A DNA stretch of 64,000 bases from Acidobacterium capsulatum ATCC 51196 (GTDB lineage Bacteria > Acidobacteriota > Terriglobia > Terriglobales > Acidobacteriaceae), in NCBI RefSeq assembly GCF_000022565.1, contig NC_012483.1:1116001-1180000 (forward strand), written 5' to 3'. The position numbers were made by a program, and so were the translations under genes. How positions within the stretch are numbered: position 1 is the first letter of the stretch; each line of letters begins with the position of its first letter. Below, piece by piece: positions 33,437 to 38,123 of this stretch. Under the pieces are notes generated by a model. That model saw only the letters and a program-made list of their open reading frames with translations, made no database searches and had not been told where the DNA came from.

Positions 33437-34945
33437 TTACTGTCCCTGACCGAGAGAGTAGCCTGGCTTTCCGTCAAAGTTGTAGAGCTGCTCGGTTTTG
33501 ATGAAATCAATACCGGCATGAGCCAGATTTGCGAGCAGGCCGGCGACGTCCGCGTTCCTGGGATTGGCTCCCTCAAACCGGCAGCGCCAGTGGTCGGTGC
33601 AGAGCGTTTCTTCCCGTCCATTGGGCCATACTTTTACCCCGCGATTGGTAATCATCTTCAGCGTGAACTCGCCGGTAGACGCGGCCTGCAGCTTCGCCGC
33701 CAGCGCGTCGGGCAACACACCTGCCTCGTCAACGAACACATCCACGCCCACAAGCGTCTTTTTCTCGACCGGCGTGTTGAGCACGGACGTCGGGTTTGCA
33801 GAGACACCTGTTTCGAGCGGCTCCGTGCTCTGAGTGGCAGGCTCATCCACGGCAGCCAACTGCACAGGACGCCGCCCGAGGCGCTCAATCACGGCCTCGG
33901 TGAAGCGCCGCGTACCAGCGCGCTCCTTGGTGTGAGCACCCGCGATGTCCACAGTATGAATGCCCTCTTCCAGTGTGCAGAGCCATGCATTCATGACCTT
34001 CGCGGCAATTGAATCCAGCTTGAGGTGGCGCAGCATCTCCACCGCCGCCAGCAGCAGCCCTGAGGGATTGGCCACATCGCGCGCCAGGTCAGGCGCCGAA
34101 CCATGGATGGCCTCAAAGATCGCTCCGCCCGAACCGATATTGACCGAGCCGCCCAGGCCCACCGAACCCGTCATCTGCGCCGCAATGTCAGAGAGGATGT
34201 CGCCATACAGATTGGGCAGCAGCACGACATCGTAATCTTCAGGACGATGCACAAAGTTGGCCATGCCAAAGTCCACGATCTGGCTATGAGCCTGAATCTC
34301 GGGATACTCGCGCGCAACCTCATCGAAGACGCGATGGAAAAGCCCATCGGTCAGCTTCATGATGTTGTCCTTGATCATGCACGTGATCTTGGAGCGGCCA
34401 TGCTGGCGGGCATACTCAAAGGCATAGCGCGCGATGCGCTCAGAACCGCTGCGCGTGATCAGCTTGAGGCACTGTGCCACGTCCTGCGTCTGGCGATGCT
34501 CAATGCCGGCATATAGGTCTTCCTCGTTCTCGCGGACAATCACCACATCCATGTCGGGGTGCCGCGTCGTGACGATAGGCTTGTAGGTGCGACAGGGGCG
34601 CACATTCGCATACAAACCCAGTGTCTTGCGCATCGTCACATTCAGCGACTTGTAACCGCCGCCCTGCGGAGTCGTAATCGGCCCCTTCAGCATGACGCGC
34701 GTCCGCGCGATCGAGTCCCAGGCCTCCTGCGGAATGCCCGAAGTGTTGCCGCGCAGATAAACCTGCTCGCCGACTTCTACATACTCCGCATCCAGATGAG
34801 CACCGGCAGCGGAGAGAATGGACATAACCGCGGCCGTGATCTCGGGGCCGATGCCATCGCCGGCGGCTACTGTGACAGGAATGGGAGTCAGCTTGGAATC
34901 CTGGGCGAGTTCGGCCTGCTCCAGATCAGTGGACGGAGAATGCAC
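33437..34945 (-). CDS. icd: Isocitrate dehydrogenase, Thermus-like long form
   Basis: A 502-residue isocitrate/isopropylmalate dehydrogenase family enzyme for oxidative decarboxylation of isocitrate. Hallmarks: AAGDGIGPEIT, IVRENEEDLYAGIEHRQT (substrate and metal site), the catalytic Lys in CMIKDNIMKLTDG, and the glycine-rich NIGSGGAIFEAIHGSAPD near the cofactor. After the core (about 340 residues) there is a C-terminal domain (about 360-502, with FEGANPRNADVAGLLANL), as in Thermus-type ICDH. The GTG at 34945 is supported by GGAGG at 34955-34959, 9 bp upstream. It is divergent from a winged-helix regulator. Confidence 0.92.
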   Translation of the reverse strand: MHSPSTDLEQAELAQDSKLTPIPVTVAAGDGIGPEITAAVMSILSAAGAHLDAEYVEVGEQVYLRGNTSGIPQEAWDSIARTRVMLKGPITTPQGGGYKSLNVTMRKTLGLYANVRPCRTYKPIVTTRHPDMDVVIVRENEEDLYAGIEHRQTQDVAQCLKLITRSGSERIARYAFEYARQHGRSKITCMIKDNIMKLTDGLFHRVFDEVAREYPEIQAHSQIVDFGMANFVHRPEDYDVVLLPNLYGDILSDIAAQMTGSVGLGGSVNIGSGGAIFEAIHGSAPDLARDVANPSGLLLAAVEMLRHLKLDSIAAKVMNAWLCTLEEGIHTVDIAGAHTKERAGTRRFTEAVIERLGRRPVQLAAVDEPATQSTEPLETGVSANPTSVLNTPVEKKTLVGVDVFVDEAGVLPDALAAKLQAASTGEFTLKMITNRGVKVWPNGREETLCTDHWRCRFEGANPRNADVAGLLANLAHAGIDFIKTEQLYNFDGKPGYSLGQGQ

Positions 34946-34989
34946 TTGGTAATACCTCCAGCGATAAACTATGAACAACCAACGATTCT

Positions 34990-35017
34990 CAATATACGAT
35001 ATATATGTCGTGTATTG
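34990..35017. promoter_or_regulatory. Palindromic operator candidate between icd and the regulator
   Basis: An inverted repeat with 10-bp arms (CAATATACGA at 34990-34999 and TCGTGTATTG at 35008-35017, one mismatch) around an 8-bp AT spacer. It sits in the 96-bp divergent region, 25 bp upstream of the regulator ATG and 45 bp from the icd start. It is the most AT-rich stretch nearby. Its position suits an operator bound by the adjacent winged-helix protein. Confidence 0.6.
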
Positions 35018-35041
35018 CAAATCGTCATTGAGCGAGCACCT

Positions 35042-35431
35042 ATGCCTTTGAAAAAGAAAGCGCCTTCTGCTGTGAGCAAGTCCATCAAAGCGGTGAGAAC
35101 CCCGAAGCCGGTGGCGGCCCCTGCATCGGCATCAGCAGCGGCTCCGGCATCCAACAGCAAGGCTCCCTGGACGTTTCTTACCAACCATTCGCATGTTCTT
35201 CTGCTGATTGCGCGCGATCCGGAAAGCCGCATGCGTGATGTAGCCCAGCAAGTGGGCATCACCGAACGCGCCGTGCAGCGTATCGTGGATGATCTCCAGG
35301 AATACGGCGTTCTCTCTGTCGTCAAGCGCGGACGCCGCAATACCTACACGGTGAATATGCGCCTGCCGCTCCGGCATCCCGTGGAAAACCGGCGCAAGGT
35401 CGGCGATCTCATAGAAATGGTCAACGACTAG
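35042..35431 (+). CDS. Winged-helix transcriptional regulator
   Basis: A 129-residue DNA-binding protein. The N-terminal 40 residues are Lys/Ala/Pro-rich (histone-like tail). The rest is a winged helix: WTFLTNHSHVLLLIARDPES, MRDVAQQVGITERAVQRIVD (recognition helix), YGVLSVVKRGRRNTYTVN (wing). Its MarR/ArsR-like form has no visible ligand or metal site. It is divergent from icd with a palindrome between them, so autoregulation and control of icd are a reasonable inference, not shown. The ATG at 35042 starts the unique tail. Confidence 0.72.
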   Translation: MPLKKKAPSAVSKSIKAVRTPKPVAAPASASAAAPASNSKAPWTFLTNHSHVLLLIARDPESRMRDVAQQVGITERAVQRIVDDLQEYGVLSVVKRGRRNTYTVNMRLPLRHPVENRRKVGDLIEMVND

Positions 35432-35533: not shown

Positions 35534-35941
35534 ATGCCCCAATCCAATCTGCGCAAGCAATACCTGCGTGCGCTTGCCGTCCTCATGATGATTCCCATGC
35601 TGGCGCTGCCGCTCAAGGCGCAAACCAGTGATCACATTGTCAGCAGCCAGGTGTTGCAGCAGAAGGTACAGTCACAATCCAATGCGCGGCAGCAGAATAT
35701 CCAGACAGTACAAAAATTCTTTGCCACCCCTCTGGCCCACCGCGCTATGCAGGTGGAGCAGGTAAGTCCCGAACAGATTCAGAAGGCCATTCCAACGCTG
35801 TCGAGTTCTGAACTCGCAAACCTGTCTGCGCGCGCCTCGCACGCTCAACAACAGTTTGCCGCCGGCGCACTCACCACCAGCCAGATGCTGCTGTTGATCA
35901 TCGTGCTCTTGATTGTCGTCATTCTGGTTGCGGTTCACTAA
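35534..35941 (+). CDS. PA2779-like small exported membrane protein
   Basis: A 135-residue protein. A signal peptide (LAVLMMIPMLALPLKA) is followed by a helical charged region (residues 30-105; QVLQQKVQSQSNARQQ, and a VEQVSPEQIQKAIPTLSSSELANL segment) and a C-terminal hydrophobic helix (MLLLIIVLLIVVILVAV). This layout and the E/Q-rich 'LSSxELxxL' region match PA2779-type proteins of Pseudomonas, which are encoded beside a C39-type peptidase, as here. Function unknown. GGGAGGAA precedes the ATG. Confidence 0.7.
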   Translation: MPQSNLRKQYLRALAVLMMIPMLALPLKAQTSDHIVSSQVLQQKVQSQSNARQQNIQTVQKFFATPLAHRAMQVEQVSPEQIQKAIPTLSSSELANLSARASHAQQQFAAGALTTSQMLLLIIVLLIVVILVAVH

Positions 35942-35944
35942 ACG

Positions 35945-36490
35945 ATGATGCTGACAAAAGGAGCAGCGCTGCTGCTCCTTTTCTTCGCCCTCAGTTCGTC
36001 TGCGTCTCGCGCCATCTGGATCAACGTTCCCTTTGTCGCACAGCCGCGGGACGGCTGCGGAGCCGCCTCGGTAGCCATGGTGATGCAGTATTGGGCTGCG
36101 CAGCAGCACCAGTCTACGAGCGCGGACGCTGAGGTTGCAGTCATCCAGAAACAGGTTTTTTCGCGACGGAGGCATGGAGCCACTCCCGGAGCGCTGGAAG
36201 CCTATCTGCACCAGCACGGCTTTCTCGTCTTTGGAGTGCAGGGAAACTGGCAATTGCTCCAGGAGCAGTTACAGAAGGGACGGCCGCTCATTGTCGCCCT
36301 GCGGCCGCCTGCGCAGCACGCGCTACATTACGTAGTGATTGTCGGCGTCGATCCGGTAAAGGGCCAGATCCTGATGAATGATCCGGAAGAGCGGAAGCTG
36401 CTGCCCGAGGGCCGTGAAGAATTTGAGAAAGACTGGAGCGCTACTCACCAATGGATGCTGCTTGCCGTACCTCGCCCGGCATCCTCGTGA
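35945..36490 (+). CDS. C39-like cysteine peptidase (PA2778-like N-terminal part)
   Basis: A 181-residue exported papain-fold peptidase. After a signal peptide (LLLLFFALSSSASRA), the catalytic Cys38 is in QPRDGCGAASVAMVMQYW, His128 in HALHYVVIVGVD, and Asp146 in MNDPEER. These are the three residues of the bacteriocin-processing C39 family. PA2778-type proteins in other bacteria join such a peptidase to TPR repeats; here the TPR part is in the next gene. The start is 3 bp after the PA2779-like stop. Confidence 0.82.
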   Translation: MMLTKGAALLLLFFALSSSASRAIWINVPFVAQPRDGCGAASVAMVMQYWAAQQHQSTSADAEVAVIQKQVFSRRRHGATPGALEAYLHQHGFLVFGVQGNWQLLQEQLQKGRPLIVALRPPAQHALHYVVIVGVDPVKGQILMNDPEERKLLPEGREEFEKDWSATHQWMLLAVPRPASS

Positions 36491-36503
36491 CCTGCCAGCG
36501 CTT

Positions 36504-38123
36504 ATGAACAGAGCCACAAGAGCCATTCTGCCTCTGCTTTTCGGGGCAGCGTTTATATTGTTACCGTTTCGGTTACAAGCACAGTGCTCCGCGCGCCAGG
36601 CAGACGCGGACTTCGCCCGCGGCATGGCCTTGGCGCATCAAAAGCAGTGGCAACCGGCCTCCTCGGCGCTCAAGGCAGGCGAAAATCTATGCCCGGCGCA
36701 AAAGCGGTTCCCTGAAGAACTGGCGGGCGTGGCCTTTGAGCAGAAGCGATATCCACGAGCAGCGCACTGGTTGCGCCGCGCTTTGCAGATCGATCCCACC
36801 GACCAATATGCAAATAATTTCGCCGGTACGGTCTACTACCTCATGGGCAATCTGCCTGCGGCGCTGTTGTACTGGAACCGCGTGCACAGGCCGCAGATAC
36901 ATGATCTTAATTTCGATCCCGATCTAAGAATTCGCCCTCTCATTCTGGGACGCGCCTTTACCTTTTCGCCGCATTCATTGCTTACCCGCCGGCAATTTGA
37001 GACGACAGAAGCGCGCCTCCATGGACTCGGCATCTTTCCCGCATACAGAATTGCGCTCAGCCCTCGCCCGGACGGTTCTTTCGATGCAGACTTTCATGCT
37101 GTCGAGCAAAATGGATTCGGAAACAGCCGTCTGCAGAGCGCCTTGTCCATTCTGAGTGGTGTGCCGTACCAGACGATTTATCCGTCCTACTTCAACATCC
37201 ATCGCTCGGCGATCAATGTCACGTCCCTACTCCGGTGGGATAGTCAAAAACGGCGCGCCTGGGTCAATGTCTCAGGACCATTGCACGATTTGCCACAACG
37301 GCGGTGGCAAATTAGTTTTGACGCGCGCAACGAAAACTGGGCGATCCGCCGGTCTTTCACCGGCTATGCTCCGGTGCTCGGCTCTTTGAATCTTCAGAAG
37401 CAGGCCGCCGCATTTCTCGTCACAGACATTGTGAGCGGACGCTGGCAGTGGGCCACGGGGGCGGAGCTTTCGCATCGCACGTACCGCGACGTGCAGCGCG
37501 GCAGCGCGCTCAACACAAACATAGTGCTGCCGGGCACCGAGTTGAAGTATCTGCTTTCGATATCCGGTAAGCCCATCGACCTGCCCCAGCATCGCCTCGC
37601 GGTGACCACTTCCGCGCATTCACAAATAGCGCGCCTCTGGTCACAATCCTCGTCGCAAGTTTTTGAAAAGCTGCAGGGCTCGGCGCGCCTGCGCTGGTTG
37701 CCATCACAGAACTCTGATCGATGGGAGATCACGCAGCAGGTGCGTGGCGGCGGACTACTTGGCGCATCACCCTTCGATGAACTGTTTATGCTTGGCGTAG
37801 AGCGCGACAACAACCTGTGGTTGCGCGGCGACATTGGCGTGCGTGGTGGCCGCAAAGGCAGCGCTCCCCTTGGCACCCGCTATTTGCTCACCAACAGCGA
37901 TTTCTATCGCCGCATCTACAGCAACGGCCTCATTCGCATTCAGGCAGGCCCACTTTTTGACGTCGGTCGCATGGCCGCTCCCACAAGCGGTCTCGCCAGC
38001 AATCGCTGGATGTTTGATACCGGACTCGAAGCCCGCATCACCGTGCTCGGCACCCGGGTCCTCCTCACCTGGGGATACGACCTGCGCACAGGCCACAACG
38101 CATGGTTTGGCACAGCGAGATGA
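36504..38123 (+). CDS. TPR/POTRA-like outer-membrane beta-barrel protein
   Basis: A 539-residue exported protein. A signal peptide (ILPLLFGAAFILLPFRLQA) is followed by TPR-like helices (about 30-125; ALRRALQ-type repeats, e.g. HWLRRALQIDPTDQYANNF). A segment around 155-205 resembles a POTRA domain (GLGIFPAYRIALSPRPDGSF). From about 210 there are alternating amphipathic strands ending in WGYDLRTGHNAWFGTAR, as in an Omp85-type barrel. The ATG at 36504 is 14 bp after the peptidase stop, so the gene forms a three-gene operon with the two before it. Export or assembly of an envelope component is inferred. Confidence 0.65.
   Translation: MNRATRAILPLLFGAAFILLPFRLQAQCSARQADADFARGMALAHQKQWQPASSALKAGENLCPAQKRFPEELAGVAFEQKRYPRAAHWLRRALQIDPTDQYANNFAGTVYYLMGNLPAALLYWNRVHRPQIHDLNFDPDLRIRPLILGRAFTFSPHSLLTRRQFETTEARLHGLGIFPAYRIALSPRPDGSFDADFHAVEQNGFGNSRLQSALSILSGVPYQTIYPSYFNIHRSAINVTSLLRWDSQKRRAWVNVSGPLHDLPQRRWQISFDARNENWAIRRSFTGYAPVLGSLNLQKQAAAFLVTDIVSGRWQWATGAELSHRTYRDVQRGSALNTNIVLPGTELKYLLSISGKPIDLPQHRLAVTTSAHSQIARLWSQSSSQVFEKLQGSARLRWLPSQNSDRWEITQQVRGGGLLGASPFDELFMLGVERDNNLWLRGDIGVRGGRKGSAPLGTRYLLTNSDFYRRIYSNGLIRIQAGPLFDVGRMAAPTSGLASNRWMFDTGLEARITVLGTRVLLTWGYDLRTGHNAWFGTAR

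Follow-up and report, generated by a model that had tools for sequence, protein, structure and literature searches.

The window analyzed here, a stretch of 64,000 nucleotides of the Acidobacterium capsulatum genome, contains three tandem open reading frames on its plus strand, 35534-35941, 35945-36490, and 36504-38123, which encode (i) a PA2779-like protein of 135 aa, (ii) a C39 peptidase of 181 aa, and (iii) a TPR-POTRA-barrel protein of 539 aa. These coordinates agree with the tandem arrangement described in the initial annotation and with its first intergenic gap of 3 bp; the second gap, given there as 14 bp, is 13 bp, the third ATG being at position 36504. All three products are predicted to be exported, signal peptides having been judged by eye from the sequence. 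Promoter and terminator scans of the unit gave no signal above the shuffle level. An ORF ending in a winged-helix-like regulator sequence (34559-35431, plus strand) lies approximately 100 bp upstream of the unit and is not retained beside it in relatives.

A clear C39 homolog was found in 21 of 100 relatives, the genome of the window not being counted. The three genes are adjacent and in the same order in 20 of these 21 genomes, and in the remaining one (G035) the third gene is cut off by the contig end. With four additional three-gene loci from another collection, the unit is present in 24 further loci; the initial annotation had named a lack of such linkage in related genomes as grounds for giving up its interpretation. 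None of the flanking genes within about 10 kb is kept in relatives, and none of the window genes from 22 to 52 kb recurs there beside the unit, except for a single match at 50.5 kb. Since the gene order is kept while the flanks are not, the unit travels as three genes, and a chance gene run was rejected on the same grounds.

Peptidase and its candidate substrate

The second gene (35945-36490, plus strand) encodes a cysteine peptidase of the C39 family, its export being read by eye. The matches to Peptidase_C39_2 (E 3.7e-14) and Peptidase_C39 (3.6e-8) are above the gathering score and define a C39 domain with a Gln/Cys/His/Asp active site. Residues Cys38, His128, and Asp146, proposed as a full catalytic set in the initial annotation, are located exactly at these positions and are accompanied by the oxyanion Gln33. 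The stretch from Gln33 to the nucleophile Cys38 occupies 36041-36058, whereas the catalytic His128 and Asp146 are encoded at 36326-36328 and 36380-36382, respectively (all on the plus strand). All four residues are invariant in the alignments: all 26 aligned peptidases have Cys38, His128, and Asp146, and every row of a 25-row alignment has Gln33. The peptidase also matches NF033920, the PA2778 family, with E 3.4e-15 and 56 bits, which is under the cut-off of 150, and the TPR half of the model is absent. Thus, the window peptidase falls outside this family, defined by a score >150 and by C39 and TPR parts in one chain; its TPR part is encoded by another gene. A plasmid search with the window peptidase gave no match. 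Two other assignments were rejected, namely a FapD homolog, as the NCBIfam family search gave no FapD match, and an ABC-exporter bacteriocin cluster, as no conserved ABC gene is found at the unit.

The first gene (35534-35941, plus strand) encodes a protein with a signal peptide, a helical mature part, an [AG]G pair, and a C-terminal membrane helix, as read from NF033919 and the family alignments. It matches NF033919 (PA2779_fam) over nearly the whole model with E 2.1e-8 and 34.3 bits, below the cut-off of 40; by this sequence comparison, it is a relative of the family and not a member by the curated rule. Across all architectures described below, the PA2779-like proteins share little beyond a signal-peptide-like N-terminus, a helical-looking part, and the C-terminal end, where the order is always an [AG]G pair, a hydrophobic helix, and the end of the protein. 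In the window protein, family conservation places the pair at Ala110-Gly111 in an FAAG stretch (35861-35866, plus strand), just before the membrane helix assigned by direct sequence reading and hydropathy to residues 118-134 (35885-35935, plus strand).

All 62 non-redundant PA2779-like proteins have the [AG]G pair before their C-terminal helix, 50 as AG and 12 as GG. It is usually located 5-10 residues ahead of the helix core and precedes the last 24-27 residues. For comparison, [AG]G was seen in a segment of that size in 14% of shuffled tails (0.14 per sequence), and elsewhere in the mature part it occupies 4 of 1643 positions in 28 proteins; no p-value is claimed, because the sequences are related. 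True GG is found at the fusion loci and also in Azoarcus, a betaproteobacterium with a PA2779/PA2778 pair. The segment behind the [AG]G pair has the look of an ordinary membrane helix and, its hydrophobicity aside, varies freely. The usual cleavage site of C39 peptidases is GG, with GA as an occasional one (PMC5557850). The PA2779-like protein is a likely substrate of the C39 peptidase, a role absent from the initial annotation, with Ala110-Gly111 as the proposed cleavage site.

TPR-POTRA-Omp85 protein

The third gene (36504-38123, plus strand) encodes a predicted outer-membrane protein, whose domains were assigned using the family alignment, profiles, and fold search. The family alignment (34 rows) is characterized by TPR, followed by a POTRA-like stretch and a conserved barrel-like sequence with LRG[HD]. 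The TPR domain, residues about 28-137 (36585-36914, plus strand), matches Pfam TPR_2 with E 5.3e-8 and TPR structures with structural Z 16-18, and the TPR helices seen in the initial annotation are confirmed by the Pfam match and by Z 18. A domain search with the single sequence revealed TPR only, and the best matches listed for the full-length family profile against PDB were only TPR and other helical repeats; the C-terminal part was therefore searched alone. The profile of the post-TPR part matched the POTRA domains of Tlr1789 (2x8x, 1.9e-4), Alr2269, BamA, and 9ccg with E 7e-5 to 5e-3, the best whole-chain values being 7.1e-5 and 1.9e-4; POTRA matches also include 3mc8 and 4k3b. These matches define a single POTRA at residues about 142-205 (36927-37118, plus strand), only half of which is modeled as such in the low-confidence structure model.

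The remaining residues, about 220-539 (37161-38120, plus strand), are assigned to an Omp85-type beta-barrel by hhalign and fold search. NCBIfam Omp85_fam (NF047779) is matched by 14 of the 34 family members, the best at 5e-6, and some members also match the BamA or TamA models; PF01103 is matched by a few members and is not reached by the window protein alone. The hhalign comparison of the family with ordinary Omp85 proteins of relatives gave E 1.1e-5 and probability 81.5 over 330 columns, whereas the control against TonB-receptor barrels failed (E 0.19 over 30 columns). The same method aligns LRGD of the window protein (37821-37832, plus strand) with LRGF of Omp85 proteins, making it the putative counterpart of the loop-6 motif (V/I/L)RG(F/Y). 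In most relatives the counterpart is LRGH; Arg441 is nearly invariant, and the last place is occupied by H or D, not by F/Y.

The AlphaFold model of the full protein, built on a 5-row alignment, has pLDDT 51, and only its TPR part was searchable by structure. The model of residues 138-539 is also of low confidence (pLDDT 54.7, pTM 0.49); its top 50 matches in the fold search are all Omp85 proteins (BamA, TamA, FhaC, CdiB, and Sam50), with VIA Z up to 18.6 and Foldseek E 2e-7. The number of strands counted in these low-confidence models is 14-15, compared with 16 in the Omp85 superfamily. Taken from profiles and predicted models, and strand number aside, the third protein is established as a divergent member of the Omp85 superfamily. 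Sequence profiles and fold search thus support both the POTRA and the barrel, on which the initial annotation had also made its reading depend.

Architectures and gene copies across Acidobacteriota

The phylum was searched with the PA2778 model and then with the family profiles; as the TPR half of the model drew many matches, the N-terminal C39 matches alone were used. Three architectures were found: (i) C39-TPR alone, in open frames of 317-564 aa (L085-L096), several of which adjoin a PA2779-like gene, (ii) C39-TPR-POTRA-barrel in a single chain of 670-748 aa, in six genomes (L097, L100, L101, L107, L108, and L112), and (iii) the split form, as in the window. A separate clade of C39-TPR proteins of 345-375 aa (L089, L091-L095) has no detectable PA2779-like neighbor. 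Every fusion locus has a neighboring PA2779-like gene, upstream in four and downstream in two. The fused proteins form one clade in the C39 tree with support 100/96, and fusion and fission are not distinguishable, since the root of this tree is not known. The C39-TPR fusions and split versions for which the initial annotation had proposed a search are present, together with the all-in-one form. Its proposal that the TPR part had moved onto an Omp85-like barrel holds for the presence of TPR on such a barrel; the direction of the move is one of two, given the all-in-one form and the unrooted C39 tree.

The natural single-chain protein makes the functional tie between peptidase and barrel much firmer, and it supports a shared site of action for the two. 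TPR-Omp85 proteins without C39 were found in four genomes of one family (L077, L078, L080, and L081). In three of these loci (L077:264-1940, L080:3-1580, and L081:6379-8178), the TPR-POTRA-Omp85 relatives are located near genes that by eye have M23-type peptidase-like and SecA-like starts, and this barrel type may have another role there.

All 19 genomes with PA2779-like genes in the 247-genome phylum sample also have C39 (by-eye count). As C39 is present in at most 35 of the 247 genomes (by eye), the co-occurrence would have p about 3e-19 on the assumption of independent genomes, which does not hold. Four loci (L025, L066, L072, and L111) have two PA2779-like genes in tandem, and PA2779-like genes are also found elsewhere in the genome in G002, G035, G049 (two), G054, G121 (four), G146 (three), G312 (two), and G333, whereas a single C39 gene was found in each of nine genomes counted. 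In four draft assemblies (G121, G146, G312, and G333), the C39 gene adjoins the barrel gene and no PA2779-like gene lies directly beside them; in G146, one of the three copies is about 4 kb away from this pair. One protease accompanied by several substrate-like gene copies is, by analogy with rhombosortase (PMC3237569), the arrangement of an enzyme that sorts or processes a set of substrates. Two unlinked PA2779-like genes (L195:7605-8021 and L194:6344-6760) lie directly downstream of a gene whose large exported product, about 1156-1159 aa long, reads by eye as TonB-receptor-type; these are two genomes of one genus. In an 83% complete genome (G059), a PA2779-like gene (L228:5458-5937) was found and C39 was not detected.

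Possible function and comparison with known systems

The conserved three-gene unit of soil Acidobacteriota suggests an envelope system, not described so far, for processing or export. We tentatively favor, while giving it somewhat less than an even chance, a dedicated envelope module, for which we infer the cleavage, the complex, and the passage: the C39 peptidase would free the PA2779-like domain at [AG]G, and the TPR-Omp85 protein would hold the protease and receive the product. The steps of this putative pathway are as follows: (i) all three products would be exported by Sec, (ii) the PA2779-like protein would be tethered to the inner membrane via its C-terminal helix, with the mature part in the periplasm, (iii) the periplasmic C39 peptidase would cut it after [AG]G next to the helix, and a helical domain of about 80 residues would be released from the inner membrane, (iv) the TPRs of the TPR-POTRA-Omp85 protein would hold the protease at the outer membrane, and (v) the latter protein would accept the product and either pass it through the outer membrane or assemble it there. 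The peptidase would thereby be placed at an outer-membrane site. A wider reading, in which a C-terminal signal composed of [AG]G and a membrane helix, release by C39, and export of the domain by a docked or fused TPR-POTRA-Omp85 translocon form a new sorting and export route of diderms, seems unlikely at present.

Several observations count against the module. The usual pair is [AG]G and not GG, and its spacing departs from that of canonical double-glycine leaders. PA2778-type systems lack a barrel both in Proteobacteria and in other Acidobacteriota (L085-L096); these systems and the C39-less TPR-Omp85 genomes indicate that neither part needs the other everywhere. Finally, the AlphaFold models are weak, and the PA2779-like gene of G059 has no detected C39.

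The strongest alternative, which we regard as rather unlikely, is that the PA2779-like protein, instead of being a substrate, anchors the peptidase in the membrane or regulates it, and that [AG]G is a helix-packing or capping feature, with the peptidase acting on unlinked proteins, e.g. barrel proteins in assembly, as BepA does. Conserved glycines at the membrane border are common, and the constant partnership of the PA2779-like protein with C39 across all architectures would suit an anchor. Also in favor of this alternative, BepA and other TPR-bearing proteases act at the BAM complex (PMC8423444). Against it, additional PA2779-like genes at a distance from the only C39 gene are more readily explained as substrates than as a subunit, and [AG]G, a rare pair in the remainder of the protein, agrees with what is known of C39 specificity. 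If the barrel protein were an accessory assembly factor of the Omp85 type and the peptidase a general periplasmic enzyme, joined in one operon by descent only and sharing no substrate, this would explain why each part is found without the other in some genomes; given the single-chain fusions and the order conserved in 24 loci whose flanks are not, we consider this improbable. Least probable by our estimate is the release of a short hydrophobic C-terminal peptide (about 24 residues), bacteriocin- or signal-like and exported by the Omp85 protein: maturation of bacteriocin-like peptides, by cleavage after a GG leader, is the classical task of C39 enzymes (PMC5557850), and [AG]G does precede the last 24-27 residues, but this segment has the features of an ordinary membrane helix, and the three genes alone are conserved, with no immunity gene or ABC exporter.

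The module can be compared with several known systems. The PA2779/PA2778 pair (NF033919/NF033920) of Pseudomonas and other Proteobacteria similarly combines a small exported protein with a C-terminal helix and an exported C39 peptidase, and is homologous to the unit by profile, although the window proteins score under both curated cut-offs. In the Azoarcus pair, PAGG precedes the helix of the PA2779 protein. In contrast to the window peptidase, PA2778 proteins carry their own TPRs, and they have no barrel. We found no functional paper on PA2778/PA2779 among the open-licence papers searched. On the Azoarcus plasmid NC_020548.1, an annotated rhomboid-family protease (L211:8117-8663) is located a few genes from the pair, probably by chance.

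In the Fap system, export through the barrel FapF depends on FapD, a C39 peptidase of the periplasm, and on its active Cys; the target of FapD was left unclear (PMC5557850). Similarly to the unit, as read from the genes, Fap has a dedicated Sec-exported C39 peptidase with a dedicated outer-membrane barrel (PMC5557850). However, FapF is trimeric and 12-stranded and has a coiled coil, unlike the Omp85 barrel of the unit, and the amyloid-repeat genes have no counterpart conserved at the unit, where three genes alone are kept. By this analogy, Fap is the closest working precedent for the unit, but the unit is not Fap.

The GlyGly-CTERM/rhombosortase system has one protease and several substrates, and single-substrate genomes keep both genes adjacent (PMC3237569). 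Like the PA2779-like proteins, its substrates end with a Gly motif and a membrane helix (PMC3237569). The differences are that (i) rhombosortase is an intramembrane serine protease, whereas the linked protease of the unit is C39 and not rhomboid-family, (ii) the basic tail is weak or absent in PA2779-like proteins, and (iii) the candidate substrates here are one homologous family, whereas GlyGly-CTERM substrates are unrelated proteins sharing a tail. Thus, the unit is neither Fap nor GlyGly-CTERM, despite its resemblance to both.

The natural fusions resemble PlpD-type Omp85 proteins (patatin-POTRA-barrel, type Vd) in that an enzyme domain is combined with one POTRA and an Omp85 barrel. The PlpD enzyme domain stays in the periplasm (PMC11116518), so an enzyme joined to a POTRA-Omp85 barrel can remain periplasmic. 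PlpD differs from the unit by a lipase-like domain in place of a cysteine protease and by the lack of both TPR and a partner substrate gene. Heinz and Lithgow (2014) list ten Omp85 architectures, and the words TPR, tetratricopeptide, and peptidase are absent from their text (PMC4104836); the third protein shares the POTRA and Omp85 barrel class with these architectures.

The new observations are the one-chain C39-TPR-POTRA-barrel, the [AG]G pair in all 62 PA2779-like proteins, and the single C39 gene with extra unlinked PA2779-like copies in several genomes. With a protease as part of an Omp85 protein, a superfamily known for outer-membrane protein assembly and translocation would gain a new architecture, and the uncharacterized PA2778/PA2779 families gain a concrete, testable hypothesis of cleavage after [AG]G. 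After Fap, the unit would be a second example of a C39 peptidase that works in the periplasm for the outer membrane, here with a clear candidate substrate.
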